A stretch of 64,000 nt of DNA from Cladocopium goreaui (taxonomy: Eukaryota > Sar > Dinophyceae > Suessiales > Symbiodiniaceae), in contig CAMXCT020002759.1 in the NCBI GenBank assembly GCA_947184155.2, positions 1 through 64,000 of the forward strand, read 5' to 3'. Under the pieces are notes generated by a model. It saw only the letters and a list, made by a program, of their open reading frames with translations. It did no database searches and was not told where the DNA came from. The stretch's first letter is position 1; every line of letters begins with the position of its first letter. Below, piece after piece: positions 4,939 through 39,373 of the stretch. A program made the translations under genes and the position numbers.

Positions 4939-5726
4939 CTGTCCAAGGACGTGACAGGCACCTTGCGCAACCTACACTCACCCCTTTTTTGACAATTTGT
5001 TTTCACACAGGGTGTCTGTCCTAAGACGTGACAGGCTCACTGTTTTCATTTTTTCCTCTTGAATTTTCCACTCACACAGTGTGTCTGTCCAAAGACGTGA
5101 CAGGTCACTGTACTTTTACTACATTGCTCTACCAAGTTCCCCCTTTTTACCTGTTTTGACGCCAACACAGTGTATCTGTCCAAAGACGTGACAGGTCACT
5201 GTTGTTTCCACTGCACTGCTTTACCAAGGTCCTCTTTTGATCGATTGCTTTCTTTTCTCTCTTTTTACCAGTTTGAGTTCACACAGTGTATCTGTCCAAA
5301 GACGTGACAGGTCACTGTCCTTCTACTCCACCGCTTTACCAAGGTCCCTCTTCTAACCTGAATTTTTTGGATTGTTTCCTCTCGTCTCCTCTGTTTCTCT
5401 TCTGGACTACTCTCTATTTCACACAGTGTGTCTGTCCAAAGACGTGACAGGTCGCTGTTCTCTCCACCGCTGCCTCTGATTACACAGTGTATCTGTCCAA
5501 AGACGTGACAGGTGCTCTGTTGCCTCTACCCACCCCCCCTCTGTTTTGCATTTCGAGACACCTCGTCCCCCCCCTTTTTTTGAGTTGATTTGTTAAATCG
5601 GATCTCGTTACTTCCATATCGAACCATTTCGAACCTATTGAAGTGACTCCATTCTTTACACTCTCTTATCTTGTTTCGTTTCTCTCTCCCTGCTCTACGG
5701 GTTTATCTGTCCAAAGACGCGACAGG
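4939..5726 (+). promoter_or_regulatory. 5' UTR array of eight family hairpins
   Basis: Eight copies have cores at 4939-4958, 5016-5035, 5085-5104, 5176-5195, 5292-5311, 5432-5451, 5493-5512 and 5707-5726. The typical core is CTGTC-CAAAGACGT-GACAG. In most copies it is flanked by ACAGTG and CACTGT, which pair as an outer helix around a small internal loop. Loop variants are CAAGGACGT, CTAAGACGT and CAAAGACGC. Stretches between copies are pyrimidine-rich. The leader 4612-5821 contains no credible ORF, and orf1 starts 95 nt after the last hairpin. Roles as translation elements, packaging or RT-binding sites, or processing signals are all possible. Confidence 0.85.
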
Positions 5727-5821
5727 TACTCCCCCTCCCCTATCTTATCTCGAGTTACTTGTCATACCACTCACACACCTCTCACATACAACCTTTCTCT
5801 TGGTGAGAAGACAAAGCCAGA

Positions 5822-7129
5822 ATGGCTGAACACATCGAGGCTCAACAGGCTGCTGCGGAATATCTCGGTGCACTTGGATTGCATGCCACTCTCATGGTAC
5901 ATTTTCCGAGTAAGATCAAAGCACCTGAAGGCATACTTCTGACCACCTATGATCAGCTGCATTCACAGATAGCGAAGCAAGAGACTACTGCTTATGCGTT
6001 TCCCTCTTTTGGAGCGGCTCAAAGTGCTATGAAAACACTGGCAACGATGCAACAGACTGTTATACTTATCTATGAGTGTCATGCCAACACTGGCCCAGTC
6101 GAAATAGCAGCAAAAGTTTTTGACACTTGCCAGAGACACATAGCAGCCATTCGAGAAATAAAGCAGCTCACTGGAACCCTCAAATATCAAAAATATCCTA
6201 CTGTACTATATCTTGTCAAAATGGATAGCCTGTCAAGCAGTCCAGCCGTAATTGAATGGCAAATCCCTGACACGATAACTGATGAGCTGATAATGCCTGC
6301 CCGTATCGCCTTTGAAAATTTTGTTGGCAAAGAACTACGACAAGGGCAGTATCCAGGAATCAGCGAGACTAGTACATCACCAAATGGCTGCTATAATTCT
6401 GACAAGTCAAAAGGAAGCGTGCCGCTTACCATCAAATATGAAAAGAACTCTTGCTTACAAAGAACCAAAATCCGTGAAGCAATCGAATCGTTACAGAAAG
6501 AAATTAACACAGCACAAGACACCCAGTTTCAGATTAAAGAAGGCATTGACTGGACTCGTTTACATAAACTGCGGGAGGCTGCTACTTTCACTGTTATGTC
6601 CACTCGGCACTTAAGTGATCAAGAACGAAATGCACTTGCGCTGGAGCTCATGTCCTTTAGAATTAAGTACTTCTTCCTATCTAAAGCTCAAGTAATGCTG
6701 AAACTAGAAGGCATGGAAATCGAAGTGCTCCGCAATTTATTGCATTGTTCAACAACGTACTTGCCCTTTGGGCAACGCCAGCAATCGACACAATTTGTCC
6801 TTAGTCAAGTGACTGCCATGGGCAGCAACCGGTACCGAATTGAAGTAAGGTATGCACCAATAGGCAGTATGCCCTTTATACCACTTCAAATTGCAAAAAG
6901 TAGCATCATCCCACTCCTGGAAAATGAAGTAGCAGTCATTGACTCAGAGCTCGGTTTGCACTCATTAATGCGTTTTCAGCATCCAAATTTGAATTTCAAA
7001 CAATCGTTAATGAAGACAATGCCAATGTCACGATGCTCACTTTTTGGATCCCTCATGAAGTTAAGCAGAACTTCCCATGTTCTTTCTCAGTCAAGGACAA
7101 AAGAGGAAACAATATTGTCTGCACGATAG
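5822..7129 (+). CDS. orf1: unrecognised 435 aa protein, first ORF of the giant element
   Basis: The ATG at 5822 follows the hairpin array. A pyrimidine-rich stretch ends in CCAG just before the start, which would suit a trans-splice acceptor. I recognise no domain. There is no CCHC zinc knuckle, signal peptide or membrane segment. The middle (about residues 215-260) is rich in charged helical sequence. By position it corresponds to the ORF1 or Gag-like RNA-binding protein of LINEs, but this is inference from order only. Its end overlaps orf2 by 97 nt in the -1 frame. I see no classical slippery heptamer in the overlap, and orf2 has its own ATG there, so re-initiation is as likely as frameshifting. 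Confidence 0.75.
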   Translation: MAEHIEAQQAAAEYLGALGLHATLMVHFPSKIKAPEGILLTTYDQLHSQIAKQETTAYAFPSFGAAQSAMKTLATMQQTVILIYECHANTGPVEIAAKVFDTCQRHIAAIREIKQLTGTLKYQKYPTVLYLVKMDSLSSSPAVIEWQIPDTITDELIMPARIAFENFVGKELRQGQYPGISETSTSPNGCYNSDKSKGSVPLTIKYEKNSCLQRTKIREAIESLQKEINTAQDTQFQIKEGIDWTRLHKLREAATFTVMSTRHLSDQERNALALELMSFRIKYFFLSKAQVMLKLEGMEIEVLRNLLHCSTTYLPFGQRQQSTQFVLSQVTAMGSNRYRIEVRYAPIGSMPFIPLQIAKSSIIPLLENEVAVIDSELGLHSLMRFQHPNLNFKQSLMKTMPMSRCSLFGSLMKLSRTSHVLSQSRTKEETILSAR

Positions 7130-10100
7130 AGCATTGTGGAAACATACTGCCACAAACTGGTGCACCGGGTGAACCACCCAGGCACGAGACCAAAGGAGAG
7201 CATTGGCGTAGAATTGGTGAAAAGTGTAATCCAAGCTTCAAAAACAGACTCACTGTCATTGCCCCTGTCAGCACCCAGAATGCTTCTCAGAAGCGACGAT
7301 TCGGACTTCTGAAGGACTCAGCAGTTGACTTGCAGACTCAACAGGTATCATATACGTATTCTGAAGAGACCTACCCGTGGATTCTCTTCCTGGAATCTAT
7401 TCCTGTAATAGATACACTGGACATCTTTTTGACTCATTTTAGTCATTTTGAAGCAGTGAACAGTGCAAAAGGAGAATTCTGCAAGCAAAACTTCCTTAGG
7501 TTTGAACAAGTGTCCAAATTTACCAGAATCATGATGTTTGAAATCCCGTCAGGAAGGCAATGTCAAATCAATCGAGTTGATGGCCTCGAAAGCTCATTAT
7601 ACCTTACTAAGGTCGATGCTTTACAAATATACCCCTTCAAAACTTGTTATCTTGTCATGCTCGTGCCTCCCCACTTTGACTTCAGTACCATGCTAACTGC
7701 TGATACTAAAGTTGAAGCCATTGCTGCATGGAAATTTAGTACATTCGACAACAACAGAACCAATTTGAAAACCACCGCGGTACTTTCGACAAGCTCCACA
7801 CAGCACCAGCCGCTCATGAAGGACAAACGAACTGACCAGGGTGCCAAACTGCTTAGGACCCCGTCTGCCCCCCCCAGCAGCAAGAAAGCAATTGACCAGC
7901 TTCCGGCTTACGCAGTTTTAGGCGTCACCCCCCCACCAACTCCGCCCTCCCAGCAGGTCAATCCGTATCAAAACAGTCCCCCCCTCACTGAGGCTGTCGC
8001 TGGGGCAAGCGTCCATGACACTGCGAAGTCAAATGCAGAGCGGTCAGGCAGTCAAGGTGAACTTAATGGTGCGCAGCGTGCTGGTAACGTTCCAGAAGGG
8101 CAATTAACCCATGGGGATGCACGCACTGACCCCCCTACTGTCAGCCCAACCATCCCATGGACCAACCTACCTGCTAGTCACCCAACTGACACCGGTGAGC
8201 AACAGATTACTGAAATGGTTGTTGATCAAGACCATCACGGAAATAATATACGCAAAAGCGAGGAGGAAGATAAGGAGATGCTACCTCCCCAACCGGCACT
8301 TCTCTCCACCCCCGTCAAGAAACCCCCTACACGTGAAGGAGAAGCTCTTAGCAGTCAGAAAACTAGCATCCAAGAGCTCAAACCTACTTGTGGTGAAGTG
8401 AAAGGTGGGCTTGCAAGCAAAGGCAGACTGTCTAATGAACCTTCTGACCCTGTTGTCACTCCGTCCTCCCCACCTGGTGTCTCCCCTTCCTCACCAAATG
8501 ACAATGCGAAACCTGAGTGCAGTGACCCCATTGTACCTACACTTCCAAGTCAATGTCAGCCTCCAGATCTTGCCTCTAAGGCCCCTATTAGAAATGATCC
8601 TTCGCCAGAAAAACAGCCATTGTTACCTGATGACTCTATTGTCGTAGAAATCGGTGAAGATCCCCCTGGCATTGCAACCCCCACAAGGACCAAGTCTTCC
8701 CAGACCTCCTCCTTACATCAAGGAGAAGCGCTTCCCCCTATCCAGGCTGCCCTTAAACGAAGTTCTGTCCGCCCGGCCAACGACAAAACGCGTGTGTGCA
8801 TTGATATCACTGGGGAAGATGACCATACTAAGCAAAATGACCCCGCCCAGACATCCTTTGAACGTGAAACTCAAAGTCAGTCCCAACCAGCTCAGTTTGC
8901 CTCTCTCTCTCCTTTTGCTGAATCCAGCCGCAAATGGTTCCCGACCCTTGATGCTCCCGTTATTGCGGCCTTAGCTAATAAAGCCCAAGACATTGCGATT
9001 AACTGTGGTCACATGTCTAGCATGAATACTGCATTGTACTTCCTATCAAGAGGGCCGTGGATCCCAACACATGTTAGTATCCATGTGCGACAGGCAGCCC
9101 TTGCAGCAGTAGGGGTAGGGTGGAGTTGGGTCCATCAAGTACCCACGGTTTTTCCCTTTACATGTTTTGATGCCTGCCTGTCCCTTGCGACACTCAGCAC
9201 CATTCCCCCTAACGGCACTGCGCAAAACGATGCAGTATATGAACTATACTCAATCATATGCGCAAACCTTAGTCAGAGTACTCGTAACTTTCTTTTCTCA
9301 AGATTTGTATTACAATGTCAGGCGTGTTTACAGTCTAGCGCAATACCAATTGACACCTTCACTGCCACAGTCAAGCCTAATACAGGTATAGATGAACTTT
9401 GTGACTTGTTAGTTCCAATCTGGAATACTAATGAATTGACAGAGTGTCAAGCTTGTTCATGTCTAGACACTGCCAATGCCAAGTGGAAATGCGGCAAATT
9501 TGGCCCCTTGATTATCGTTCGAATCAAAGTACCTCCAGGATGCTCCCTTCCGAAGCTCGAGGAAGAACGACTCCCGCTTGGGTACAAATTCATGTTCCAA
9601 GAAAGAGAGTACGAAATCCAGTGTCTCATAGCCACCACTAGGCTTGACTTTGACAGCCAGCTCATAGTCCTGCATACTAGTCAGCCTGGAATGATAAGTA
9701 TGTACGACCATAACAATGGTATACGAGTTGTGGACTGTAAGCATGTCAGCGGGAAGCTCCTCATCAGTGGGCTTGTCATACTGCCAGTTAAGTCACCCAA
9801 AGCAATCCTAATGACAAAGCAACTTTCTGAAGCAGCAGGAGGAGGTGAAGTTGCGCAGTATCGCAAAAGACAGTTAAAGGTTGTCAAAGGCTTTCTCAAA
9901 ACGCCTCGGAAGCAGAAAAGAACGCGAACCTCGCAGCTCTCTCCCCCTTCATGCAAGAACAATGCGAAAACCAAGTCGAGCAAGAAGAGGGCGAAGGTGA
10001 CCAGACATGGACCCCCTAAGGATAGTCAGAATGAGAATGTAGTTGAAGAGATTGACCCTGAAGGATTACCTAGGATTATCGCACATGCAACGCTGGCCAA

Positions 10101-12624
10101 CGTTGGTGTTATCTCGATGTTTGATGGAGTCGGATCGGTCTATCACATCATTAAGAAAAAACTAGGTAAACCCCCTACTATCTTCATCGCAGCAGAAATT
10201 GATCCTGTCTTACGTCGGCTTGTTGCTGCCGAAATAGGACTGCGTGAAGACCAACAGTGGGCATATACGATTGAAGGGGTTGCTACCATCTACGTTAAAG
10301 ATGTATGGGATCTAGTTGCCCGTGACTCTCTGATCCTTCGTCAAGCCAAGACAATGTATCCTACAATCAAGTGGATTGTTGTTGCAGGATCTCCCTGTCA
10401 AGATCTTACTTATGCAGGTTACCTAAATGGATTGCTTGGGCTGACAGGTCAGCGAAGTATGCTCTTTTTTGTGGTTTACCTTGTAATTCTGCATCTTCAG
10501 AAGCTCTTTGGACCAGAATCGGTCCGATATTTGACAGAGAATGCTGGAAGCATGCAAATTGTACAAACTGACCGCAAACCTAAAGGCATGCAGCGCCTTG
10601 AGCAGTCTGAACACTTCCAAATGTTTCTATATTGTCTTGGACTTCCTAGTAAACAACCAACCAGTCGGTGGGTATGGGACACTGGTCCCTATTATGGCAT
10701 TCAGCGAAAAAGGGTATTTCTACGGAGTCACATGGACACAGAGAAACTGGCCAGTGTTCCGCTCACTTTTATCGATGAATGGGGCCCTTTAGTGACCTTG
10801 AACGGTGAAAACTTACCATTGGCCCCATTACTCCGAACAAGAGGGCTGTCAAACAATGGAATCCTGAAGCTTTCCTGGACAGGCTACCAGCCCAGTGCAC
10901 TCCTATGGGATTATTCCTTTTTTGGTGGGAGGAAATCTTTCATGTTGTTAGCCCAAATGGCTGAGGGAGTTAGGGTCCCAAACCTGCCATGGGCAAGCTT
11001 CATCCCTGCTCACTTTCTCCCCATATGGAAAAGTTTCCTTATTACTCTTCAAACAGACAGAGCGACCACATCCAAAAAAGATGAACTCATTGAACAACTA
11101 GTGCCTATCTTTCATAACCCAAATATTGTGCTGCCAATGAGAATTCTGACGGTCCAAGAAGTACGCAAACTAGCAGGACTTGAGAATATCTTAACGACAG
11201 AAAGACATGGGCCCTCTCTTCTCACGGATAAAGTGATTCGAGACTTTTGTGGAAATAGCTTTCACCCATCTCTCATCAGTGCGGCTCTCGGTACTGATAA
11301 TCAGCTGCAACAGTGGGTTGAGGGAAGCAATGATGCGCAGCCGTACCACAAAGACCTACCGAGTATTCAAGAAGTATATTCCAAATACCAAGACTTGCTG
11401 AAACTGGTTCTGGAACAAGCAGCCGCTCGAGGAGTTCAACTCAAAGATGACAAAGTTGACTTTGAAGCGAAATGGAGGCACTATACTCTTAATGACAGTG
11501 TCGAATCAGCTTGCCCTCCAATAGTGCACCAGCCGACAGTTTTCGCCTTTTTACAAGGATCCAAACCTCCGAAGTATCAAGGAACCCACAGTGAGGATAA
11601 ACCCCCCTTTGGGGATAAAGAGCTGAGCAATATTATGACCCAAACTCGGATTGATTGGGTGCTAGAGTCCTCAAACACATATGAAAATGTTACCCTATCA
11701 GCGCACATGCTTTACTTGGCTGTTAAAAATGGTCTTGGATTTCATGCTGAAGCTCAAGAGATCAAAGCAAAGCATATTGAACTGTTGAGAGAATATACGG
11801 GTGCTGAACAACTTACTGCTATCAAACAACTATTTGTTGTTTTCCAGATTGCAACGCTTAGTGTAAAGCACCAATTTCCCTACGGTTTTATCATTTGGGC
11901 ACCAAAAATTATGCAACCTCCCCTTATCTATGTTGGGGTACAGCGACCTTGCCTGCTATTCCTGTTGCTTTCTCATGAGCCTGATCAACCGTTTCGCTTT
12001 GGAACGGTCGCATTCGACTACCGACAAAGTAAAGACTTTCTCATTCATGCCAACATGCCAAAGATATTTGCTGATGTGGTGCAAGTTTCTTATCATACAT
12101 TTGCGACCTACCCGATACTTGCTCGAATTGATAATGGACAGCACTATATACATCTTAGTGAATTTGCGGCTTTACAGTGCCCTTTTTGTGCCTTGTGTTA
12201 CTTGCACACACTTGGTGCCCCGCAGTGCTTTATGCACAACGCCTCGCCCGCTAGCACTGTCATCCATTTACTCGGTGGTCTGGATGGCACAGGCGGCTTA
12301 AGTATTATAGGTGTATTAGCACGAGATGTTAGTGGTGCCACTCCACAATGGATCGCTGTACACGTTGTTGACAATCACCAAGTTCAAGATCTTACAAGAT
12401 CTAAGTCCTTTGTTGCGTACAAAGTTGCCACCCCTGTTGTATGGTCACCAATGTGGTATACGCAGTCATCGTCCATGCGGCGAATGCCTAGGCAACTTGG
12501 AACTCAGCTCATACAATCGCATACACTGGACCCATCAGGAGAATATCTTATCTTTGCAGGCACGGAGGAGTGGAGCAGGCTGCTCTTCGCACTGGGAGAA
12601 GCCCCAACGGAGGGACTAAACTGA
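7033..12624 (+). CDS. orf2: USP-like fold plus DNMT3-type DNA cytosine methyltransferase, 1863 aa
   Basis: After about 260 residues there is a long Pro/Ser/Thr-rich linker (about 260-630). Residues about 655-920 resemble a ubiquitin-specific protease: a Cys-box-like GHMSSMNTAL (659-668), Cys pairs at 762/765 and 805/808/810, then GPLIIVRIKVP. Ser662 sits where the catalytic Cys belongs and the GHY box is missing, so it is probably inactive. A basic linker follows. Residues about 1020-1430 are a C5 methyltransferase: motif I ISMFDGVGS (Asp1031), motif IV GSPCQDL (Cys1122), motif VI Glu1169-Asn1170, motif VIII near 1223, motif X GNSFHPSLI (from 1407). The order and wording are closest to DNMT3. 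The C-terminal 430 residues are unrecognised. Cytosine methyltransferases inside dinoflagellate retrotransposons are known, but I know of none in this setting. Confidence 0.87.
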   Translation: MLTFWIPHEVKQNFPCSFSVKDKRGNNIVCTIEHCGNILPQTGAPGEPPRHETKGEHWRRIGEKCNPSFKNRLTVIAPVSTQNASQKRRFGLLKDSAVDLQTQQVSYTYSEETYPWILFLESIPVIDTLDIFLTHFSHFEAVNSAKGEFCKQNFLRFEQVSKFTRIMMFEIPSGRQCQINRVDGLESSLYLTKVDALQIYPFKTCYLVMLVPPHFDFSTMLTADTKVEAIAAWKFSTFDNNRTNLKTTAVLSTSSTQHQPLMKDKRTDQGAKLLRTPSAPPSSKKAIDQLPAYAVLGVTPPPTPPSQQVNPYQNSPPLTEAVAGASVHDTAKSNAERSGSQGELNGAQRAGNVPEGQLTHGDARTDPPTVSPTIPWTNLPASHPTDTGEQQITEMVVDQDHHGNNIRKSEEEDKEMLPPQPALLSTPVKKPPTREGEALSSQKTSIQELKPTCGEVKGGLASKGRLSNEPSDPVVTPSSPPGVSPSSPNDNAKPECSDPIVPTLPSQCQPPDLASKAPIRNDPSPEKQPLLPDDSIVVEIGEDPPGIATPTRTKSSQTSSLHQGEALPPIQAALKRSSVRPANDKTRVCIDITGEDDHTKQNDPAQTSFERETQSQSQPAQFASLSPFAESSRKWFPTLDAPVIAALANKAQDIAINCGHMSSMNTALYFLSRGPWIPTHVSIHVRQAALAAVGVGWSWVHQVPTVFPFTCFDACLSLATLSTIPPNGTAQNDAVYELYSIICANLSQSTRNFLFSRFVLQCQACLQSSAIPIDTFTATVKPNTGIDELCDLLVPIWNTNELTECQACSCLDTANAKWKCGKFGPLIIVRIKVPPGCSLPKLEEERLPLGYKFMFQEREYEIQCLIATTRLDFDSQLIVLHTSQPGMISMYDHNNGIRVVDCKHVSGKLLISGLVILPVKSPKAILMTKQLSEAAGGGEVAQYRKRQLKVVKGFLKTPRKQKRTRTSQLSPPSCKNNAKTKSSKKRAKVTRHGPPKDSQNENVVEEIDPEGLPRIIAHATLANVGVISMFDGVGSVYHIIKKKLGKPPTIFIAAEIDPVLRRLVAAEIGLREDQQWAYTIEGVATIYVKDVWDLVARDSLILRQAKTMYPTIKWIVVAGSPCQDLTYAGYLNGLLGLTGQRSMLFFVVYLVILHLQKLFGPESVRYLTENAGSMQIVQTDRKPKGMQRLEQSEHFQMFLYCLGLPSKQPTSRWVWDTGPYYGIQRKRVFLRSHMDTEKLASVPLTFIDEWGPLVTLNGENLPLAPLLRTRGLSNNGILKLSWTGYQPSALLWDYSFFGGRKSFMLLAQMAEGVRVPNLPWASFIPAHFLPIWKSFLITLQTDRATTSKKDELIEQLVPIFHNPNIVLPMRILTVQEVRKLAGLENILTTERHGPSLLTDKVIRDFCGNSFHPSLISAALGTDNQLQQWVEGSNDAQPYHKDLPSIQEVYSKYQDLLKLVLEQAAARGVQLKDDKVDFEAKWRHYTLNDSVESACPPIVHQPTVFAFLQGSKPPKYQGTHSEDKPPFGDKELSNIMTQTRIDWVLESSNTYENVTLSAHMLYLAVKNGLGFHAEAQEIKAKHIELLREYTGAEQLTAIKQLFVVFQIATLSVKHQFPYGFIIWAPKIMQPPLIYVGVQRPCLLFLLLSHEPDQPFRFGTVAFDYRQSKDFLIHANMPKIFADVVQVSYHTFATYPILARIDNGQHYIHLSEFAALQCPFCALCYLHTLGAPQCFMHNASPASTVIHLLGGLDGTGGLSIIGVLARDVSGATPQWIAVHVVDNHQVQDLTRSKSFVAYKVATPVVWSPMWYTQSSSMRRMPRQLGTQLIQSHTLDPSGEYLIFAGTEEWSRLLFALGEAPTEGLN

Positions 12625-15600
12625 TTCTTGTTACTTGCAATGATGATGATTCTGCGGAACTTGCCTGCTCCACTGCTCCGTACACTGCTCAAGATGCTTA
12701 CGCGATGTGTCAAAACGACTTACTATTCGAAACAGGGACTCAGTGCCCGCCATATCTATCAAAGATACGTGACCTATCAATATTGCCCCATATACTCCAT
12801 GTCCGAACACCATGGTGGAAGTTAACCCTGCAACATGTTGCCACACTTTTCCATCAGGGTGTTGATGATTTTTATCAGCAACTTATGTGTGATTCACGAA
12901 CATTACCTTCTCTTGCAGTAGAAGAAATAGGACGAAGCATTCTCGAATATCGAAAAGCTATCAGACAAGATCTTCCATTCAGGCTTAAACGATTACACGT
13001 GTGGAATGTATCAGGGTGGACACTCACAACTAGAGCAGGGGATGCCAAAATGCGACTCATTAAACGACTGCTACGAACAGGCCCGGTTTTACTACAAGAA
13101 ACCAGATGGCATGCTGAAACCCATCAGGTCTTGCACCATAATATACCAGGTATTCAAGTTGCACACACCCAAGGATTGTTAACAGAAAGAGGTGGAGTGT
13201 CGGGTGGTTCAGCAGCCCTAATTCCACCTGGGTGGAAACTTGACCGAACAGAAGTTGTCATACCAGGTCGCATTGTCCTTGCCGTAATCCAAGACAGATA
13301 TTCTACCATCGGACTCTTGTCAGTGTATCTACATCCACAAACCAAGGTCGTTGAGTTGAAAGAATTAATCACCTGGGTCAAGACCAGTAGAGTCGACTTT
13401 CCCCTTTATATGGGGGGAGATTTTAACCAAGTGGATGCTAGCTGCCCGGACCTTTGGAATGAATTATTAGTCCACGCTCAAGTTCTCGACACGCATCCGC
13501 AACTTCACACCTTTGAAAGCCCTACTGGAAGTTCAGCACTCGACAGAGTATTATGTCCTACTGATTATATAGCTGCAGCCCAAATAGATGTTATGGTAGC
13601 AGCCAATAGGCGACATCACCTAAGTGGACATTACCAGCTCACCGCGACCTTTGTAGTTCGACCAAGAGTCAAAAGTGACATGAAAGACCCAGTCCATCAA
13701 ACCATCCCAACTAACGTGTTTTGCCCTGGAAAGAACGAGGCTGACCCCTATATGGTTCCTAACGATCTACAAGAGCTGATAAGAAGGATCCAAAGACTAC
13801 CCCAAACAGATGAAGTTGAGTTTGTGTCCACCCTTTGGTCGTGGTGGAGACAACAACCTATTCCATCGGATCACCCTCGAATTCCTGAGCATGAACTTCT
13901 GCGGAAATTCCTTAAAATTCGAGCTGAGGTGTTACACGTACCTGCAAAGCATTTCCATGCACTCCAGGCTGCCACTTACCATATATTTACTTCCAACGGG
14001 GTTAGTGAGCTATATCCAGGAAAAATAACAATCCGAAGTGATCTGTTGAAACAGATTTTTGATTTTCTAGACCAGATCACGATGACTCGGCAATATCCCG
14101 CTCTTGAGCAGGTAAATCAACAAGCCAGAGGTATCGGCAATAACATTACGTTCTGGAACCGTTTGCGATCTATTTGCCCCAAGGGCGTCATTTATAATGG
14201 GCCGATCCTCAATCAGCAGGGAGAACAGTGCACCACCTCCCAGATGTTGGACGAAGCCATGCTTGACACGCGGAACTTTTGGTTTGTAAAGCCTCAAGAC
14301 TCTCTTCAAGAATGGGAACCCATTTTACGGGAGTACCAGACTGCTTCGTCGTGGCCGAGTATTGAACTTCCCCAGAAACAGGACTTTCTCCATACACTCC
14401 TTGGCACTAAAGATTCAGCCCCTGGCCCTGATGGAATCCCCTACTCTGCATGGAGGCTTTCCCCTGAAGATAGCTACCCAGTCCTAGATCAGCTGATGAT
14501 GAAAATGTTAGCAGGCCTACGAGCTGCACCTGTACAAGTAGGGGTTTGGATACCCAAGGCAAAAGTAGGTCCGACTGCTGACTATTTCAGGCCCTTAGGA
14601 ATGCCCAATACTTGTGATAGGCTTGTTGATGGCACCATTGCTGCTGTAGTCATGAAAGCAACTTGTGCCTATATGCATCCCTCGCAGGTCGTCATGAATT
14701 GCTTTAAAGAACCGCAGCATGCTGTCCATGCCATACAAGCCTTACTGGATAGCAATACTCCCGTGGCTGCACTACTAGTTGATCTATCAAAGGCCTTTGA
14801 GCGGGTTAATCCCTATTGGATCTTACATATCCTGCGAATGCGTAACGCGCCGACATGGGTCTGTAATTATGCCAAATACATCCTATTTGGAAGGCTCATC
14901 CGCCATAAAGTTCAAGGCAGACTTCTGCCGCCTAGGGCGGTGCATGTGGGAGTTGACATGGGAAGGTCTTTCTCAGTGTTCCTATTCTGCTTGGCAATGG
15001 ACCCGATATATCACTATATGAATCGTATCCCCCGGGTCCTTAGTGTTCAGGGATACATTGACGACAACACGATTGCAGGACCAGGACATGACATTACCTG
15101 GGTTAGTAGAGTCCACAAATGCTATCAATGTTGCTGGTCGGCAGGTTTTCAAATTGACCAGCATGCCTGTTGGCAAGCTATCAGCACTGACTGTCCCCCC
15201 TTTTCAGTCCAATCCCTGCCTGGGCGGATCGAAAGTGAAGTTATTCTCCGGCAAAAGAAATACCCCACCGCACGAGCAGCGATCTTATCGGCTATCCTTT
15301 CCCAAAAGACACTCCTACTTGCACGAGCTGACAAGTGTATAGGGTTGACCCCTCGAGAAGCTTGCGGTATCCTTAATGGAACAGACTACACACCCATATG
15401 CTCATTGCTGGCACTAGAGTGTAACTGTAGATGTAAAACAGCTCTAGTAATCAACAGCCCGCTTCCAAGCTGGGTGCTTCGTCAGTTAGATCAGTCAGGT
15501 TTCGGGGCACACTGCATCCAAGGTGTTGCGACCTCTCTCGGACTATTATTGCTAGGGCGCGCCCAATTGTCGGATCGTGACTTATGGACAGTAACTACAC

Positions 15601-18600
15601 ACCCTACTACCCTTAAACAAATCAATCCTAAGGCTGCCGAAAAGTTTATACATCGGCTCAGGCTGTTTCGGCAACCAGTCCTCTCAGTTGTCTCTAAGAG
15701 CATTGCTTTCAATACGTTTGCACAAAGTGTGGTACTATACACTACATCCTATTTTGGTGCTGCCACGGAAGATCTTCAAATGCTACGCGCGGCAGCAACG
15801 GAACTCTTACTAGGACGAAGTTGGATTAGACATGACCTCCTTGCATTCGTATTTCGACTGTGTAAAATTGCACCACTACTTGACCCGGGCGTAAGTATCC
15901 TTGTTTCTGCATTAGGGCTATTTCTGCGAAAAGGAGGAAAGGTTCATGAACTTTACATTGAAACTCCACCGGCAGTGAACAGACAAACACACGAAGTTAG
16001 GATACTATGGCAAGCGTGGGCACGTGTCGTTGGGGAAGGTGTCCTAACAAGAGCAGTATCAGGAAGTGGTACAATCAAACAACGAATAAACGCAGTCAAA
16101 AAATGTGTGCTCCATCACATGATGCAGCTAGCATCTCACTATATTCGTAATAAGGTACTAACAGCTGGATGGACGGGAGGAATCAGCTGGGCATGGCTCA
16201 GCCATGCTTGCGAGGCCAACAAGCGATGGATTCCTAGTATTACTAGGTTCACCTTGTTACGCTGGGCAGTCAATGAGGATGATGATGAGTGGTTAGCACG
16301 ACGTGGCCAAAGTCGGCAAAAAAAATGTGCTCTCTGTGCAAACTTTGGCCGTGCATACCCACTCGGCGGCTATCAAACTGCAATTTGTGAAACATGTATA
16401 GTAACCAAACAGCTGACGGCCTTCACGACAGACTCCCTTGTCAGACTGCTTGAGGCATCACGCAGAGTACTCCCTACACAAGAAGAACTACCGGCAAGTG
16501 AAGACTGGGAAAAATGCATTGCATGTTCAAAGGGAGACAATACTGTAGGACATTGGATTCGGTGGTGTGTAGTACCTATCAGCGCGTTAAGAAGCCTGAC
16601 AGGAGATAATTCAATACTGTCGCTGGCCGAAGGGTCAAGAAAAAGCGCTAAGCACTTAGCAATAGCATCGCGAGTAGTTCATCAATTCAGGTTGCTACTA
16701 CGGGAATCAGGTGCAATGAGACATCAAATCTCTGCTCCCCTTACCCCCATGGATACCTGGATACATAACCTCGTGCAAAGAGTACAAACAGAACTACCCC
16801 TGGACCTTCGTATGCAGCATATAAGGACACAGTTAGTTTCCGCCCACTGTTCTGTTGATGACTCGCTACTCTCGTGCTGTGACAAACCCCCACTTCACAT
16901 TTCGTGTGCCCTTGCCCCTGCTCGAGTATGCATTACTCGTGAAGCAGTGGAAGCCAATCAAACAGTTGCGGTTGTCCCCTTAGGCTCTGAACCACTGCAA
17001 TTAATTCAGCAAACTATCCAGGTCGGAACAGGAATTTCCCCAAATGTCTCGCTCTCCACTTTCCAGTGTGAGTGTGGTGACTATCATTGCCGTCTTACGG
17101 CATTACAGCCTATAGGCACCGATGAAGTACTTAGTAGCTGTCTCAATTCGGACAAAACTACACTACTAGTACAATTTGACGGGTCCTGTCATGCTGATAA
17201 GGGAACAGGTGGGGCGGGCGCTGCTCTCTTAGAACTCCAGCGAGAAGGACTAACGCTGCTCAAGTGGAGAGCTATTGCACTACCTAGCTGCCCAGACAAT
17301 ATCTTTGCTGAGGCGGTGTCAGCTAATCTCGCAACAGACCTTTTGTGTGAAGAAATGGTACACAGAAGCTACGCAGTTGACCAGGCCTACTTACAAGGGG
17401 ATATCCTCCCCATCGTAAAGCACTTAGCCTTTGCAGGACGCTTTCGTCGGATCGACCTACAGCCTATTATACAGCAAATTCGCCGGAAACAATCGAGGTT
17501 TTTTGACCATGGAAAATGGGTATACCGCCCAAGAGAAGCCAATATACTCGCAGACTATCTTGCTGGAGTAGCGAGCCGAGCGGCACAGGCCTTCCCAGCT
17601 CATATAAGCGAGCCTACCGAAATCGTGGTTGAAGCGCCCTATCAGTTGGCCATGCGATCTGGAGCTATTGTACTGGAAGAGAGGCCGTTAGGTGTTACGA
17701 TCCTATTACTTACCGAAGTCCCGACTGTAAGCATAGAATTGGTAAATAAATTTATGATGCAAACTGCAAAGCAGCAATACCGCAAAGAGGTGGAGGCCTA
17801 TTTAGCGGGCACTGCCAATCTCACGAAACCTCGAGTAGTAGAGTATACAGCTTCTGCAACAGACTGTCTGGGCCGACTGTATGGCAGAGGTCCCTGTGCT
17901 CAAAGACTGCCACGAAAGGTAAGATTACTCCTATTTGGAAATACGCACCAGGAAGTTGACATGGTCGGCGCTTTCTACGAAATCATGCGACGACTCCTTC
18001 GCAGCAGTCACCTCCCACACATAGTAGATCTGAGAGCGATACTCATTGATCTGCTAGGGTTAGTACCGCTGAATCAGCGGTTTGCTGTGGTCAAGCGACA
18101 TCCGCTAATTGTAATGAATGCAGGGGCAAGTGAAGCGTGTGCTAAAATTGAAAGGGAACACCATATCACATGTCCTCCAGCATTATATCACCTCAGCCTT
18201 CAAATTGAATCAGCAACACAAGCTCTTGTTAACCACCACCTGCCCGTAAGGAGGCCACAATATGCTGCTCATGTCAGAGGTGCTGCTTTTCGAACTCTTG
18301 AATGGTATGAAGAACACATTATGATCTCTTACTACAAGGAACTAACGAGAAGGTGTCACGTAACATCAGCAATCTGGCTTCATGATGGACTCTGGCTCCC
18401 AAAAGAAATCTCTCCACATTTACTTTATGAAGCTGAACGGGCAATGCTCCATCAATTACAGCTAGATTCATGCGATCCCCCCCTTTTCAGTTTACGTGAA
18501 CTCGCCGCAGATGCTCAGGCTCTTATACAGACTCTCGATGATGTCAACGTGGCCACAAATCCCTCCCCCCTCCCCCGTACCGAAAGGAAAAGAAACACCG

Positions 18601-18707
18601 AAAGTGAGCTATTCGGGACGAGACCCATCCGATGGAACACACAAGCACCAACATCGGGCTACGATACCTTTACGGAACGCATGGCCAAACGGCGTAGAGC
18701 AACCTAA
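12492..18707 (+). CDS. orf3: LINE-type endonuclease, reverse transcriptase and RNase H, about 2045 aa
   Basis: Residues are numbered from a GTG at 12570. Endonuclease (EEP/APE type) signs are Glu177 (LLQETRWH), Asp284 and Asn286 (GGDFNQ), LDRVL and SGH near 354. Reverse transcriptase signs are APGPDGIPY near 618, Asp738 (VDLSKAF) and YIDD at 829-832 in place of YADD. Further on are Cys pairs near 1255-1350 that may be zinc-binding. RNase H signs are Asp1537 (FDGSC), EAV, a later Asp, and NILADYLAG. The last 330 residues are unrecognised. The frame is open from 12492, overlapping orf2 by 133 nt in the -1 frame. It has no ATG until 12705, after the orf2 stop, so it is made by frameshifting, re-initiation at 12705 or a non-AUG start. 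No canonical slippery site is visible. Confidence 0.92.
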   Translation, partial: ATWNSAHTIAYTGPIRRISYLCRHGGVEQAALRTGRSPNGGTKLILVTCNDDDSAELACSTAPYTAQDAYAMCQNDLLFETGTQCPPYLSKIRDLSILPHILHVRTPWWKLTLQHVATLFHQGVDDFYQQLMCDSRTLPSLAVEEIGRSILEYRKAIRQDLPFRLKRLHVWNVSGWTLTTRAGDAKMRLIKRLLRTGPVLLQETRWHAETHQVLHHNIPGIQVAHTQGLLTERGGVSGGSAALIPPGWKLDRTEVVIPGRIVLAVIQDRYSTIGLLSVYLHPQTKVVELKELITWVKTSRVDFPLYMGGDFNQVDASCPDLWNELLVHAQVLDTHPQLHTFESPTGSSALDRVLCPTDYIAAAQIDVMVAANRRHHLSGHYQLTATFVVRPRVKSDMKDPVHQTIPTNVFCPGKNEADPYMVPNDLQELIRRIQRLPQTDEVEFVSTLWSWWRQQPIPSDHPRIPEHELLRKFLKIRAEVLHVPAKHFHALQAATYHIFTSNGVSELYPGKITIRSDLLKQIFDFLDQITMTRQYPALEQVNQQARGIGNNITFWNRLRSICPKGVIYNGPILNQQGEQCTTSQMLDEAMLDTRNFWFVKPQDSLQEWEPILREYQTASSWPSIELPQKQDFLHTLLGTKDSAPGPDGIPYSAWRLSPEDSYPVLDQLMMKMLAGLRAAPVQVGVWIPKAKVGPTADYFRPLGMPNTCDRLVDGTIAAVVMKATCAYMHPSQVVMNCFKEPQHAVHAIQALLDSNTPVAALLVDLSKAFERVNPYWILHILRMRNAPTWVCNYAKYILFGRLIRHKVQGRLLPPRAVHVGVDMGRSFSVFLFCLAMDPIYHYMNRIPRVLSVQGYIDDNTIAGPGHDITWVSRVHKCYQCCWSAGFQIDQHACWQAISTDCPPFSVQSLPGRIESEVILRQKKYPTARAAILSAILSQKTLLLARADKCIGLTPREACGILNGTDYTPICSLLALECNCRCKTALVINSPLPSWVLRQLDQSGFGAHCIQGVATSLGLLLLGRAQLSDRDLWTVTTHPTTLKQINPKAAEKFIHRLRLFRQPVLSVVSKSIAFNTFAQSVVLYTTSYFGAATEDLQMLRAAATELLLGRSWIRHDLLAFVFRLCKIAPLLDPGVSILVSALGLFLRKGGKVHELYIETPPAVNRQTHEVRILWQAWARVVGEGVLTRAVSGSGTIKQRINAVKKCVLHHMMQLASHYIRNKVLTAGWTGGISWAWLSHACEANKRWIPSITRFTLLRWAVNEDDDEWLARRGQSRQKKCALCANFGRAYPLGGYQTAICETCIVTKQLTAFTTDSLVRLLEASRRVLPTQEELPASEDWEKCIACSKGDNTVGHWIRWCVVPISALRSLTGDNSILSLAEGSRKSAKHLAIASRVVHQFRLLLRESGAMRHQISAPLTPMDTWIHNLVQRVQTELPLDLRMQHIRTQLVSAHCSVDDSLLSCCDKPPLHISCALAPARVCITREAVEANQTVAVVPLGSEPLQLIQQTIQVGTGISPNVSLSTFQCECGDYHCRLTALQPIGTDEVLSSCLNSDKTTLLVQFDGSCHADKGTGGAGAALLELQREGLTLLKWRAIALPSCPDNIFAEAVSANLATDLLCEEMVHRSYAVDQAYLQGDILPIVKHLAFAGRFRRIDLQPIIQQIRRKQSRFFDHGKWVYRPREANILADYLAGVASRAAQAFPAHISEPTEIVVEAPYQLAMRSGAIVLEERPLGVTILLLTEVPTVSIELVNKFMMQTAKQQYRKEVEAYLAGTANLTKPRVVEYTASATDCLGRLYGRGPCAQRLPRKVRLLLFGNTHQEVDMVGAFYEIMRRLLRSSHLPHIVDLRAILIDLLGLVPLNQRFAVVKRHPLIVMNAGASEACAKIEREHHITCPPALYHLSLQIESATQALVNHHLPVRRPQYAAHVRGAAFRTLEWYEEHIMISYYKELTRRCHVTSAIWLHDGLWLPKEISPHLLYEAERAMLHQLQLDSCDPPLFSLRELAADAQALIQTLDDVNVATNPSPLPRTERKRNTESELFGTRPIRWNTQAPTSGYDTFTERMAKRRRAT

Positions 18708-19861: not shown

Positions 19862-19979
19862 CACATAAACAGTCAATGGACTCCTGTGGTCCCGGAATTC
19901 AACCGTCTTACATTCCTCTCCCACATGAATTGTGCTAGTCTGTTGAATTCAAAGAGATCACACAATTTCAGTTACCGGA

Positions 19980-25443: not shown

Positions 25444-25981
25444 GTGACATTAGACTTTTGACATCTGCATGCTGTCTACAGTCCGAAGGAACTGCAGCGA
25501 AGACTGTGGCTCTTTCCTCACGCTGAGGATGCAGGACATAAAAAGATGGTAATTGCACTAGTTGCTATATCTGCTAACAGATTTCTGGCAGTCGAGTAGA
25601 GGAGTCTTCTTGCATGGGACCCCTTGCCACGCTGCTCGATAGAAGGCCCGCAGCATTTTCAGCTCAAATAAAAGCATCGGACTCCTGATCCTCACCGAGA
25701 CTTTCCTGATACAAGTCTTGTCACATACCAACTAGATCGATCTTTAGACCTATGGGATCCTAGATATGCTATACAGCACAGGCCGTTTTCCTCTGACTGG
25801 CTACTATGTTTTCGTTGTATCATCTTGCAAGCCCTTGCGAACTGTTCTCTCGTGATCTGCTAAGCAATATCGGCACAAATTTAGATGGTCTGATATGTTA
25901 CTAGTCTTTTTACAGTTCCTTATACACCCCTCTGCATCCTGCCTAGGCATTTATGAATTTCGTGGTTGCAAATATAAGTGC

Positions 25982-26017
25982 GAGGCCTCTCTGGCTAAAG
26001 ACTGTCAGGGTTGCCTC
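25982..26017 (+). promoter_or_regulatory. family hairpin ahead of orf10, short-loop type
   Basis: The inner stem CTGGC/GTCAG includes a G-T wobble, with the 8-nt loop TAAAGACT. The outer stem is GAGGC/GCCTC. The orf10 ATG at 26043 follows 25 nt after the outer stem, the same distance as for orf6. The rest of the 600 nt gap 25444-26042 shows no gene. An upstream in-frame ATG at 25953 would place the hairpin inside the coding region. Confidence 0.75.
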
Positions 26018-26042
26018 CGATTACTTATTTCCAGGGGCAAGT

Positions 26043-27161: not shown

Positions 27162-27606
27162 TTGCGTGCTCCAGATGAACATTTTCCCAGTAGGATGCGG
27201 GCATCAGGCAAAAAGGAACTCTGGCCTGCTTGTTATCTTAAGACACACGAAAGAACGTACGCATAAAAAACTTTCATTTGAACCATGATGTTTGTAATGC
27301 ACTAGCACTGTGTGCTCTGTCACATAGAGATACTGCTCCCTGCGATCCCATCGGCTCAAGAGACAGTCGTAGCCAGTCTTGCTGCCTTAGCTCAGTTCCA
27401 GGAAAGGGACATACAGCTCCTCCTAACCACGTTAAGGGATTGAAATAGCCAACTTCCCGGATATTGGGCGAAGGGTATTGCTACAGCTTCTTCTCCATTC
27501 AACAAAGTACATATTGATCTTTCGTGCATTGGGACCACATTCCACGATAGTATCCATCATTGCTCATTTCACTTCATCCTGCTTCTCCCTCCCTTCCATT
27601 TGACGT

Positions 27607-28082
27607 CTGGTTTCTCTGGCCAAAGACGTGCCAGGTTACCAGCGCCTCCCTTCACCTCCTCTCCCATTCTTCTCTTTTCTCTCTCTCGTGCCTGGATTCT
27701 CTGACTAAAGACTGTCAGGGCTTCCAGCTTCTTCTTCCTGCTTCCTCCCCCTGATTCACCTCTTTCGCTCACTACGTGTGCGCTGCCTAGCTTAGCCATT
27801 GCTCCTAAGTCTCAGTGTCCTGGGTATTTGATTTGATCCTTCAAGTTTGCGCTCTGGGTGCTTGAACTGCCTGGCCAAAGACGTGTCAGGTTTTTCAACA
27901 CTTGCCCCCCCTTCTCCCACCCCCCTTTTTGATTTGTTTGGTTGTGTGTTGTGCTGTTGGCCTTTTCTTGTTGTTGCCTGCTTTGTTTGTCCTTCTCTTT
28001 GTTCCTCCCTGTCGGTTTTTCTGTTGTTTTTTCCAATTGGTGTGCTTGAGTCTTCTGACCAAGGACGTGTCAGGATTCTCAA
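27607..28082 (+). promoter_or_regulatory. array of four family hairpins ahead of orf11
   Basis: Four elements follow. 27607-27642 has inner CTGGC/GCCAG and outer CTGGT/ACCAG. 27692-27727 has inner CTGAC/GTCAG, loop TAAAGACT and outer CTGGA/TCCAG. 27862-27898 has inner CTGGC/GTCAG and outer TTGAA/TTCAA. 28046-28082 has inner CTGAC/GTCAG, loop CAAGGACGT and outer TTGAG/CTCAA. Every change in one arm is matched in the other, by a Watson-Crick or G-T pair. Spacers are pyrimidine-rich. The rest of the gap 27162-28148 shows no gene. Confidence 0.88.
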
Positions 28083-28148
28083 CACCTCCCTCCCTCCCCC
28101 GTTCTTCAATTCTACAGCCAAATCAGTTGCCCAGGAATTCACAGTGTG

Positions 28149-29126
28149 ATGTCTCTGCTTTCCAGAGAACAGGTTACGAAGTCTTGGTATGAAAAGAACC
28201 CAAATATCAGTTTCTTTGACTTGCTCTACGCAATTGAACAGCACAAGAGCATTTCGACTGAATACGGGCTGAATGTATCGATTGAGCAGCACTGGCGATT
28301 TGGAGACCCCCATAAGAAGACAGCTGCACCGGATCGGCATGACTATGAAATTGCCACGGTCGACGGGAGCGAAACCTTACCTGGACCTGATTGGCACAAG
28401 TTGAACCGATGGTTGGTTAGTCAGAGCTCAGCTTTTCTGCCCTACCACACGGTATATCTGGTGATGGACAATCGGGATCTGCAATCAGACAAGGTCAAGT
28501 CTGTGCCTGGACTCAGCCATTGGCCAATGGTCGCTGCTTGGTGGAAAGAACGGCTACGATATGTCGGTCCATATGGCGAACTCACCACAGTTGTCTTTGT
28601 CCACATTTCGGCTGACACTGGTCTTCACAAGGTACACCCGACATGGGCTGGGACGTACATTCTTGATGCTTGTGTATTCCTCTTTCCGACCATCAACTTT
28701 GCACTGATTGACAGCGATTGTGTGCCTGTGACCCTCTTTGAGATACGAGAACTTTGGCTAGCGAGCACTGATCCAACCCTCCCAGCTACGCCAAGCAAAG
28801 TTGCCAAAAACAAACTGCCAAGTCCCATTGCATCATCGCACAAACGTGCGCGCTCTGTGGACACGGGCAGGGATATGCAGCAACCTGGCCCACCATCGAA
28901 GCTGTCCAGATCGCATAGTGCTGACCATATTGCTGTCCGAACAGCTGACCCGCTACGAGCTCCGCCACTTACCTATGGTGCCGATCTGGCAGATGAAGTT
29001 GACTATGGTGGGTCACCAGACCCGAGTCCCCGCATGTCTCGTCGGGCGTCGTCCAGCAGCGATGACTCTTCACCGCCTGGGTCAACTAAACCTACCCGGA
29101 AAGACAAAACAGCCGAGGATGGGTAG
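28149..29126 (+). CDS. orf11: unrecognised 325 aa protein with a DxD-like motif
   Basis: The first ATG is at 28149, 67 nt after the last hairpin. The N-terminal 210 residues look globular, with many Trp and Tyr residues. FALIDSDCVPVTLFEIREL (about 188-206) looks like the DxD metal and nucleotide-sugar site of some glycosyltransferases, but without other family signs this is a weak hint. Residues about 215-325 are low-complexity, Ser/Pro-rich and charged (KRARS, SSSDDSSPPGS), probably disordered. The stop at 29124-29126 opens directly into the 1.1 kb structured block. Confidence 0.65.
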   Translation: MSLLSREQVTKSWYEKNPNISFFDLLYAIEQHKSISTEYGLNVSIEQHWRFGDPHKKTAAPDRHDYEIATVDGSETLPGPDWHKLNRWLVSQSSAFLPYHTVYLVMDNRDLQSDKVKSVPGLSHWPMVAAWWKERLRYVGPYGELTTVVFVHISADTGLHKVHPTWAGTYILDACVFLFPTINFALIDSDCVPVTLFEIRELWLASTDPTLPATPSKVAKNKLPSPIASSHKRARSVDTGRDMQQPGPPSKLSRSHSADHIAVRTADPLRAPPLTYGADLADEVDYGGSPDPSPRMSRRASSSSDDSSPPGSTKPTRKDKTAEDG

Positions 29127-36779: not shown

Positions 36780-39373
36780 TCCCCAGCTCAACCCCCCAGT
36801 ATCACACTTTCCTTCGTGTGTCCACCCCCTCTCCCCCCTCCCCTTATCTCTTTTCTGTTTCACTCTGGGTTTTCACCCTTTGGTTGGCTTTTGTTTCATC
36901 AATCACGGTGGTGGAAGATGACTTACGTGTCTAATTGGTTCAATTGTCACATCTACTTAAGTTTACTGCTCATACGCAGTGTGTCTGTCCCAAGACGTGA
37001 CAGGTGCACTGGTATGCAGCAGGAGACACAGTTTCCCCATTTATAATTGTTAGGCTCATCATGCGACACATGCCTGGCTCCAACCAACCCAGATCTCTCC
37101 ATCAGTTGGGAGCCACAGTTGGCGTTGTGTGCGAGTGCCAGCTTAGGCATAACAGATCGGGCCGCATGGCTTCGGTAATACCCGCTTTCTGAATGTGCTG
37201 TCCCGTCGAGAGCTTAGCTTGTACCAAGGTTGCCTCTGCCATGAAGCCTAGTGCACGCACTCGCTTTCTCGCAGGCTTTGCCTGACAATCATCGATGGGT
37301 GAAGAGGCTGTTGTTGTCCCCAGATGTAGTCTTGATTAGCCACCCACTCCCCCACCCTTTCCACCAACCAAGGCACTTGAATTCGCTGACTCATCCATAG
37401 GTTTTGCCATCCGCAGAGCTTCATTAGGTGTTGGTGCCTTTTTCTGTCCCTTTCGGTTTGTGGTTACTGTTCCCTGCCTGACGTGACCCTCACTCCCCCT
37501 CGGATGTTCCTCCTTGGCGCCTTGGTCCAGGTTTTACTGGTCCCTCCCTCTGGGTATCGTTGCTTCCGGCGACGGCCTGGTTGCCTTGCCTCTGTGCTTG
37601 GAGTGATTGTTGTGCATTGATTTCCCCTCTTCATTGTGTCTCATGGCACTAAAGGCCTTTGGCCCTGTGTGGGGCTCGTTCCCTCTACACCATGTTTCCT
37701 GTGCTGTTGGAGTGCTGTGTGCACCCTCACTGAGGTATTCATCATAGTATGATCCTTGGCCCCTTTTTTGAACTCCGTTAAGGCACGTTTGTACCCCTTC
37801 TGGTGCGGGTGTGTCCCTCTCCCTCTGTCCTCTGCTGCCTCCTGGCTCCTCTCCTCGCTCCTTCTGTGTGGCCGGTGTCGTTGTGTGTGTTTTGTTTTGG
37901 CCTCTCCCCCCTTTTGTGATGTGCTTTCCCCCATGATGGCAGGGTTCTCTTTGGTGGTTGTTGTGTCATCTGGTTTACCTGTTGCCTGGATACTGAGGTT
38001 ACCGCTCTACATCATTGCTCTGTCATTTCACCTTCACTACATTGGTCTTATCTCTAGTTACTCTGAATTCGTTCGCGGTGGGGCAGATTCCTGTCACCGT
38101 CCCCTCCTCTCCGTTTTACCTCTTTTATGTCTTTTTGCGGTTTTTGGCTGTTTGATTCATGTGGCTTTTTCGTTGGCTGTCTGGGGAGGGCCCTTCTCGC
38201 TCTGTTTTGTTTCTGCGATTTCTTCGGGAGGGGCGGTAGATCCCCGGTAGAGCCATGGACCAGGCTGCACTGCAGTGAGCACTACTGGCGCTGTCCAGTG
38301 GTGCTTCCTGCTGTTCAGTCTGGAGCGCCCTAGTGCAGCAAAGCCTGCCAACATGGATCGGTGCGCTGATGGGACGTTGTGATTCTGCTCATGGCTCACT
38401 CTAGGGGAGAGTGGCCCTATGTGAGATGCACTGCGAACCTCTGGAACATCTGACTTGCAGCAGTTTTTGCTGGGACGATGACACCTGGTGAATCCTGCTA
38501 GTCAATCTGGTGCTGGTACAGCAAACCTAGCCACCTCTTCAAGTCTGTGGCTTGAGCTCGATTGCCATGTGCGAGCGGCGCAATTGTGTACAGGTCGCTG
38601 AGTAGCAATCTTTCTTTGCTTAAGCCTCCCCTCTGCACGAGTGTATTCTATTCATCTGCAATGACCTTACGGAGAGGATCCTTTTTTTCTGCGGAGATCT
38701 TTCACCATTGGCACCGTTTCAGGTCCTCTTGGCTTCCTACGATATGACAGCATCTGGGATGAATTACAGTTATTGTCCTGCATGACCTACAGGCTGTCAA
38801 TCCCTACCCCCCTTGAGGGGGGTATTGAGTCACATCACCACTGCGGCAGTATCTTACTACAGAGATTGGACTCCAACTTCACTCATCATCATAGGACCAA
38901 CTTTGACAATGAGAATGGCAACTGATACGAGCTGTACTGTCAGCTATTCCTGCTTTGCCTACCTTTCAGAGAGCTGGAGTGACAGTCACGGTTGTATGGA
39001 TGATTGGAATCTGGGTGATCGTGTACTATATTTTTCGCTCTGCCGCACTTAATTAGTTTGCATGTTTTTGATGACGATACAGTGGCTTAGGTCACTGTAT
39101 TCAAGGCAAATCTCAAGTTGTTTGGTTTGGTTCTTGTTTGGGCCCGGCCCCGTTCTTTGTTGCTTCGCTGTTTGCTTTATGGCGAAACGCAAATCTGGCT
39201 GGGGGATTTGCGGGTCGTTTTGGTTGCGTTTTTTTAGTTTTTTGTTTGTGTTGATGTGATGATTTGCCCGCGTTTTTGGACCACACGAGTCCTTTTTCTA
39301 AATGCTTTTCACCGCTTACGCTATTGTAAGGACCGTGCCTAGTGCGAATCGGCCAAACCGGAAGAAAAAAAAA
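36780..39373 (+). other. 3' UTR and 3' terminus of the giant element
   Basis: This is 2.6 kb without a convincing gene, nearly identical to 1427-4029. It carries one family hairpin (36972-37015), a C6/TTGA/G6 hairpin near 38796-38830, and an 8 bp stem at 39077-39084/39093-39100. It ends CGGCCAAACCGGAAG followed by ten A residues (39364-39373). Short ORFs in it are C/T- or G/T-rich and not supported. Confidence 0.82.
36972..37015 (+). promoter_or_regulatory. family hairpin, 3' UTR of the full copy
   Basis: The inner stem CTGTC/GACAG carries the loop CCAAGACGT. The outer arms ATACgCAGTG and CACTGgTAT pair with one mismatch. It corresponds to 1617-1660 of the upstream copy, with loop and outer-stem substitutions. 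Confidence 0.75.

Follow-up and report, generated by a model that had tools for sequence, protein, structure and literature searches.

The 64,000 nucleotides of Cladocopium goreaui DNA analysed here (positions 1 to 64,000 of contig CAMXCT020002759.1, assembly GCA_947184155.2; hereafter the window) contain a retrotransposon of approximately 34.8 kb with about ten open reading frames (ORFs), which starts at 4580, ends at 39374 and, judged by its sequence, resembles the SymbioLINE retrotransposons and would be a giant long interspersed nuclear element (LINE). Recurring in the element, and present once in another copy upstream of it, is an RNA hairpin that is real and is selected as sense-strand RNA. 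The function that we propose, at a probability of about one half, is that of a cis-acting tag in the leaders of the messenger RNAs (mRNAs) of the giant LINE, read by a putative lineage-specific factor for translation and/or particle assembly.

A preliminary description of the window counted 18 hairpins in the element and one in the upstream copy, and placed eight of them in the 5' untranslated region (UTR), others ahead of orf5, orf6, orf7, orf9, orf10 and orf11, and one in the 3' UTR. All 19 were located in these places, every one on the forward strand:

1618..1660, +: hairpin of the upstream copy of the element, in its 3' UTR (loop start 1635)
4927..5737, +: ORF1 5' leader with eight hairpins (loop starts 4944, 5021, 5090, 5181, 5297, 5437, 5498, 5712)
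19823..19865, +: hairpin ahead of orf5 (ATG 19989; loop start 19840)
20777..20819, +: hairpin ahead of orf6 (ATG 20842; loop start 20794)
22251..22293, +: hairpin ahead of orf7 (ATG 22401; loop start 22268)
24023..24065, +: hairpin ahead of orf9 (ATG 24280; loop start 24040)
25979..26020, +: hairpin with an 8-nucleotide loop, ahead of orf10 if this starts at 26043, otherwise within the frame 25953-27161 (loop start 25996)
27604..28085, +: four hairpins in the orf11 leader (loop starts 27621, 27706, 27876, 28060)
36973..37015, +: hairpin in the 3' UTR, loop CCAAGACGT, approximately 2.4 kb short of the element's 3' end (loop start 36990)

Twelve of the 19 copies have exactly CAAAGACGT as their loop, two have TAAAGACT and five a one-base variant; CAAAGACG is found at 14 places in the window, where 1.94 would be expected, and none of 100 shuffles reaches that count. 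Coding sequence holds none of the 18 element loops, though it makes up 73% of the element, in a gene set of our own choosing that takes 26043 as the start of orf10 (the copy at 25996 would fall inside the longest ATG frame of orf10, 25953-27161) and does not count as genes two short ATG frames, 19796-20023 (75 aa) and 23896-24153 (85 aa), which overlap the copies at 19840 and 24040. A scan of 4500-64000 for other hairpins with recurrent loops (stems of 6, loops of 6-10) yielded CAAAGACGT only.

Fold, covariation and conservation of the hairpin

Single folds share a plan in which an outer helix of 2-3 base pairs, a one-base bulge, a stem of 5 base pairs, a pyrimidine-rich 2x2 internal loop and an inner stem of 7 base pairs lead to a 9-nucleotide loop whose bases one and eight are able to pair; some copies are fully paired, and the outer register is different in the 5' UTR copies. 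The folds of 11 of 12 correctly bounded sequences beat nearly all of 200 shuffles (0 to 8 equally good), and the fold of 5073-5115 is unremarkable (24 of 200 shuffles as good). That the stems covary and the folded form is selected, as the preliminary description had claimed, is borne out by the window copies, by two larger sets and by a null model based on a tree. The 19 window copies have two-sided changes at 10 of 15 pairs and a covariation score of 0.445 versus 0.165 when shuffled (reached by 0 of 500 shuffles), with slid controls giving at most 0.141. The score is 0.547 versus 0.196 for 27 representative copies (alignment A3) and 0.614 versus 0.220 (0 of 500) for 36 copies from four lineages plus one 3' UTR copy, L039 (alignment A7), the rows of both alignments being hand-picked representatives of classes, with 44-nucleotide forms and near duplicates left out. 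In the 36 copies, two-sided changes affect 11 of 14 pairs, 89.9% of cells are paired versus 68.9% when shuffled, and sliding the partners by 1-3 columns gives scores of at most 0.179. The tree-based null, which is home-made rather than R-scape and uses a tree built on 43 columns, leaves four column pairs at E<0.05, namely base pairs 8-36, 11-33 and 4-40 and the loop columns 25-26; the remaining base pairs are above E 0.05 (5-39 at 0.09, 6-38 at 0.38, 16-28 at 1.5, and others).

The 27 copies contain 69 G.U cells and 6 A.C cells, and pair 12-32 is U.G in 26 of them and in 35 of the larger set of 36. Because a fold of DNA would favour neither G.U nor A.C, the forward-strand RNA is the selected form. 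The same wobble pairs disfavour one function that had been offered for the hairpin, that of a cassette-recombination site folding as single-stranded DNA in the manner of attC, for which no excess of G.T over A.C is expected, and no integrase match (Pfam, E<=0.1) was found in the ten element frames scanned, with orf4, orf5 and orf8 outside the scan. Such a site would accord with the diverged paralogs orf6 (20842-21651) and orf9 (24280-25443), which have 28% identity (E=1.6e-11) and are a probable sign of module duplication within the element; it is nonetheless highly improbable. The hairpin had also been called unfamiliar, in keeping with which no Rfam family (release 15) reaches its gathering score in the window; a published description was not found in a literature search, which left most subscription papers outside.

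The family to which the element belongs is large, with at least 123 orf11 matches scored of 1719 candidates. Sixteen of 20 loci upstream of orf11 homologs in other lineages, chosen by us from the listed homologs, carry hairpin matches (R1), which number 44 and are all on the sense strand. L046, L051, L052 and L054 have no R1 match; similarity of these loci to other copies starts at or after the hairpins, and L051 has a hairpin-like string at 1708. Among the 100 places listed, of 796 that match the hairpin pattern (252 for the reversed-pattern control), 12 of 15 fetched loci resemble the element. One copy, L025, has a 3' UTR with two hairpins in place of one (7430-7588). Hairpins outside the element were sought in L034, L040 and L042, which do not match it, and were rejected as chance (no R1 match in the first, and R1 scores of 13 and 16.5 bits in the other two); also set aside were viral contigs, 15 of which contain CYGNCCAAAGACGTGNCRG once each, near chance by a rough estimate, and which gave no blastn match to the window at E<=1e-10. 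A search with a distant reverse transcriptase, P0026, scored 21 of 1702 candidates with 38-43% identity over the reverse transcriptase part, and these are read as the window's own family because several of the contigs carry orf11 homologs too.

In 12 copies of the window's lineage, the second, third and fourth hairpins of the orf11 leader (h2, h3, h4) are 96.8%, 98.1% and 97.8% identical versus 67.4% for the spacers (counted over columns present in the window), and h1 is 91.6% identical over 9 copies, L024, L029 and L032 being omitted (needlessly for L024, which does show h1); the 12 copies were reached through a pattern needing an h1- or h3-like loop, for which an h4-like loop also served in L024 and L029, and the values are selection-biased for h1 and h3, unbiased for h2 and mostly unbiased for h4. 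Tandem duplication accounts for part of the 5' UTR copies, as their self-matches indicate, and the hairpin could on that ground be a neutral repeat with no function as RNA, an explanation made barely credible by the covariation and by hairpins that are near-identical amid diverged spacers.

Spliced leaders at the 5' ends of the element and of the orf11 unit

The reference sequence of the dinoflagellate spliced leader was taken from the accessible part of PMC6050394; the leader, together with one homolog named symbB, also marks the host as a dinoflagellate. Two features of the window are related to it:

4580..4598, +: 5' end of the element, formed by a relict of the dinoflagellate spliced leader that differs from the canonical form by 4 edits; other copies begin here
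27353..27362, +: GGCTCAAGAG, putative trans-splice acceptor of the orf11 mRNA (AG at 27361-27362), approximately 240 nucleotides before the first hairpin, placed by the junction in L088

Of 59 other listed matches to a probe spanning 4560-5830 (40 of 320 candidates scored), 38 begin at query positions 16-42 and none earlier. Leader-like sequence is present at 12 of 12 fetched 5' ends of the element, the DNA upstream being different among them except in L075 and L076, which are the same, and L087 provides a thirteenth leader-bearing 5' end. The relict leaders imply that the DNA copies were made from an mRNA that had been trans-spliced. Relicts occur in tandem at the 5' ends of L073 (two) and L081 (three), where they probably record successive rounds of trans-splicing and retrotransposition.

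In two copies of lineage B, L058 and L064, an exact leader is fused ahead of orf11, with unrelated DNA upstream; the bases joined to the leader come after CAG in 8 of 10 aligned longer copies, which themselves hold a decayed leader-like stretch at the orf11 junction, and 2 of 12 matches to a lineage-B probe cover it from base 1. For the window's lineage, a probe of leader plus spacer is covered from base 1 by one of 40 matches, L088, in which the leader minus one base is fused to the sequence that follows GGCTCAAGAG and all four hairpins are spanned at 95.9% identity. These junctions show at least three retropositions of the orf11 unit in the form of a leader-capped RNA that has the hairpins in its leader and would be either cut from the long RNA by internal trans-splicing or separately transcribed. 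Because leader junctions are found upstream of both clusters, the ORF1 and orf11 hairpins lie in the 5' leaders of spliced-leader mRNAs; we infer the same of the hairpins of the other ORFs. Leader-like matches in seven spacers are singly weak (p 0.01 to 0.87) and sum to 61 versus 50.9 (standard deviation 2.8; 0 of 500).

The presence of leader junctions ahead of two hairpin clusters could be taken to mean that, where ORFs meet, the hairpin is a signal for trans-splicing or for 3' processing; a processing or trans-splicing signal was among the functions offered in the preliminary description. The hairpin is not at the acceptor, however: the junction precedes the first hairpin by about 200-240 nucleotides at orf11 and by about 330 nucleotides at ORF1. 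The number of hairpins varies from 1 to 8, and host genes of dinoflagellates are trans-spliced generally, according to the accessible part of PMC6050394. A signal of either kind is very unlikely.

Loops of different lineages and the proposed leader tag

The loop had been described as invariant, which is too strong. It is near-uniform in the window's lineage, and other lineages in the same genome have other spellings; what stands is that a loop tends to be common to the copies within one element, and what falls is constancy across the family. On C4691, a 97% match to the window's lineage, the loop is CAAAGACGT in 10 of 11 matches and CAAAGACGC in one. Lineage B has mostly GTAGAC, GCAGAC or ATAGAC, and lineage C has GCAGAC plus one ACAGAC. 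On C4735 (lineage D), the loop is CGCAGATTG in 9 of 9 matches: four ahead of orf11, three in the region of the 5' UTR, and two in spacers, which correspond, by stem and spacing, to the orf6 and orf7 hairpins of the window. These nine, on one strand over approximately 35 kb, are taken as one element. The two variable loop bases agree within a locus at 0.78 versus 0.36 when shuffled (44 matches, one of them unreadable, in 16 loci), the shuffle ignoring relatedness. Corresponding stems are related while loops differ, as for CACGGTG ahead of orf6 in the window, L082 and L083.

Of the functions offered in the preliminary description, a putative binding site in mRNA leaders fits these data best. The RNA to be copied begins with the spliced leader of the host; the unit starting ahead of orf11 also exists as a leader-capped RNA, itself retroposed; and the hairpins sit downstream of the leader in both the long RNA and the orf11 unit. 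According to the mechanism that we propose, a putative RNA-binding factor would recognise the tag by its loop, and binding of this factor would mark the element's own mRNAs for translation and/or for assembly of a retrotransposition particle. The factor is most likely encoded by the element and co-evolving with the loops, because loops tend to be shared within an element and differ between lineages of one genome; a host factor of a single fixed specificity fits poorly, because the lineages share one assembly. More tentatively, the loop may be each lineage's own RNA password, such that an element-encoded protein would read the loops on all of its own spliced-leader mRNAs, genomic and subgenomic, and the lineages would be orthogonal within one nucleus, with loops and readers drifting together.

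Several observations weigh against the leader tag. No hairpin is found upstream of orf4 or orf8, and one copy is located in the 3' UTR instead of a leader. The leader-like signal in the seven spacers is significant only when summed. Mixed loops occur in the lineage-B loci L048, L050, L058 and L061, in C3621 (L082, L085) and once in L055. The distance from the reverse transcriptase to orf11 is approximately 21 kb on C4735 versus approximately 9.4 kb in the window, and insertions or two copies may be involved. The sole structure prediction, for orf6 (24 sequences), has a mean predicted local distance difference test score of 41 and was not used.

Two rival explanations also assign the hairpin a role in the element's RNA. 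If the hairpins were only packaging or nucleation signals, that is, repeated sites for an element-encoded coat-like protein with no role in translation, their large number and the inclusion of the 3' UTR would be accounted for, and the lineage-specific loops suggest an element-encoded partner; against it, most sites are in leaders and none falls within a counted ORF, though an assembly signal could sit anywhere, and we consider packaging alone rather unlikely. Internal ribosome entry or re-initiation, by which the hairpin would enable translation of internal ORFs from a long polycistronic RNA, agrees with the presence of hairpins ahead of seven ORFs and with the clusters of eight and four, in pyrimidine-rich leaders, at the two longest reading units (ORF1-3 and orf11-12). 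Such an element is not required at orf11, whose unit exists as its own leader-capped RNA; the distance from the last loop to the ATG ranges from 47 to 240 nucleotides; and a leader-capped end already precedes ORF1, while one copy is in the 3' UTR. Ribosome entry is unlikely on these grounds.

The leader tag, as proposed, bears on the question of how a retrotransposon of about ten ORFs expresses and self-marks its messages. As the data indicate, a LINE can draw on the spliced-leader trans-splicing of its host both for the RNA to be copied and for a shorter mRNA. A single genome in which several lineages combine related stems with distinct loop alphabets offers a natural collection of candidates for orthogonal RNA-protein pairs.

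Architecture of the element and comparison with known systems

Besides the hairpins and leaders, the features of the element are as follows:

5822..7129, +: ORF1, 435 aa, without Pfam match
7033..12624, +: ORF2, 1863 aa, 0 Pfam families at E<=0.1
12705..18707, +: ORF3, reverse transcriptase (RVT_1, E=1.4e-9), with a weak RNase H-like match below cut-off
28149..29126, +: orf11; a number of other copies have it inside a single open frame of about 2300-2600 aa
30864..36779, +: orf12, in which a helicase-type match (AAA_19) is weak and does not reach the curated cut-off
39365..39374, +: A-tract of 10 bases that ends the element

An A-tract of the same length closes the upstream copy (4020-4029). 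ORF2 contains a PCQ-type stretch that we take, by eye, to be like that of C5-methyltransferases; Pfam gave no confirmation. The endonuclease domain Exo_endo_phos (PF03372) is among the precomputed domains of close homologs of ORF3 (P0003-P0007), and the window's own ORF3 is unmatched at E<=0.1. ORF1/ORF2 and ORF2/ORF3 (5822-18707) overlap with an identical relative frame at both junctions, a layout that may be likened to polyproteins made by frameshifting. Ankyrin repeats are present in orf10. The 1056 bases at 29122-30177 are missing from many fetched copies, which jump from 29121 to 30178, and they break what other copies have as one long frame; L041 and L043 carry related sequence there. 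Beyond the element, an inverted stretch at 39626-39873 with 74% identity to its 3' UTR (37495-37741) is perhaps the tail of a related minus-strand element; 56372-63276 contains a second reverse transcriptase element with a CCCH zinc-finger frame; a 125-base sequence occurs at 55867 and 63618 in copies that are 98% identical; and 48544-50021 is a G-rich repeat array (GC skew 0.41 across 48001-50000).

The hairpins can be compared with three kinds of RNA signal. RNA phages have coat-protein operator and packaging hairpins with a conserved loop, variable stems and many sites per RNA; the hairpins of the window likewise combine a conserved loop with variable stems at many sites, but belong to a eukaryotic LINE and sit in mRNA leaders, and their partner protein is putative. 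Nidoviruses, which have shorter mRNAs beside a long RNA, carry transcription-regulating sequence hairpins on the latter, both at its 5' end and in front of later ORFs; this repetition of a signal is similar, whereas the shorter mRNA of the LINE has a host spliced leader and its hairpins are inside the leader, not at the junction. The stem-loops at LINE 3' ends, which are read by the reverse transcriptase, are likewise structured LINE RNA, unlike which the hairpin has many copies, mainly in leaders, its 3' UTR copy being far from the 3' end.

Among elements of dinoflagellates, SymbioLINE-Dnmt (de Mendoza et al. 2018, PMC5890265) is, in the accessible part of its description, a LINE with two ORFs and no poly-A tail, in which, as in the window, a large ORF lies upstream of an endonuclease-reverse transcriptase ORF; the element of the window is different in its size and its number of ORFs and ends in a 10-base A-tract, and a methyltransferase domain in its ORF2 is unconfirmed by Pfam. 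The words hairpin and spliced leader do not occur in that part of PMC5890265. In the accessible parts of PMC6050394 and PMC12014239, in which leader-capped LINE RNAs and the hairpin family were not found, DinoSL-tagged retrogenes are described that have spliced-leader relicts, sometimes several, at the 5' ends of retroposed mRNAs. The element shares with these retrogenes a 5' spliced-leader relict with different DNA upstream, and is distinguished from them in that the RNA which was retroposed is that of the retrotransposon itself, a unit within which also bears a leader of its own.

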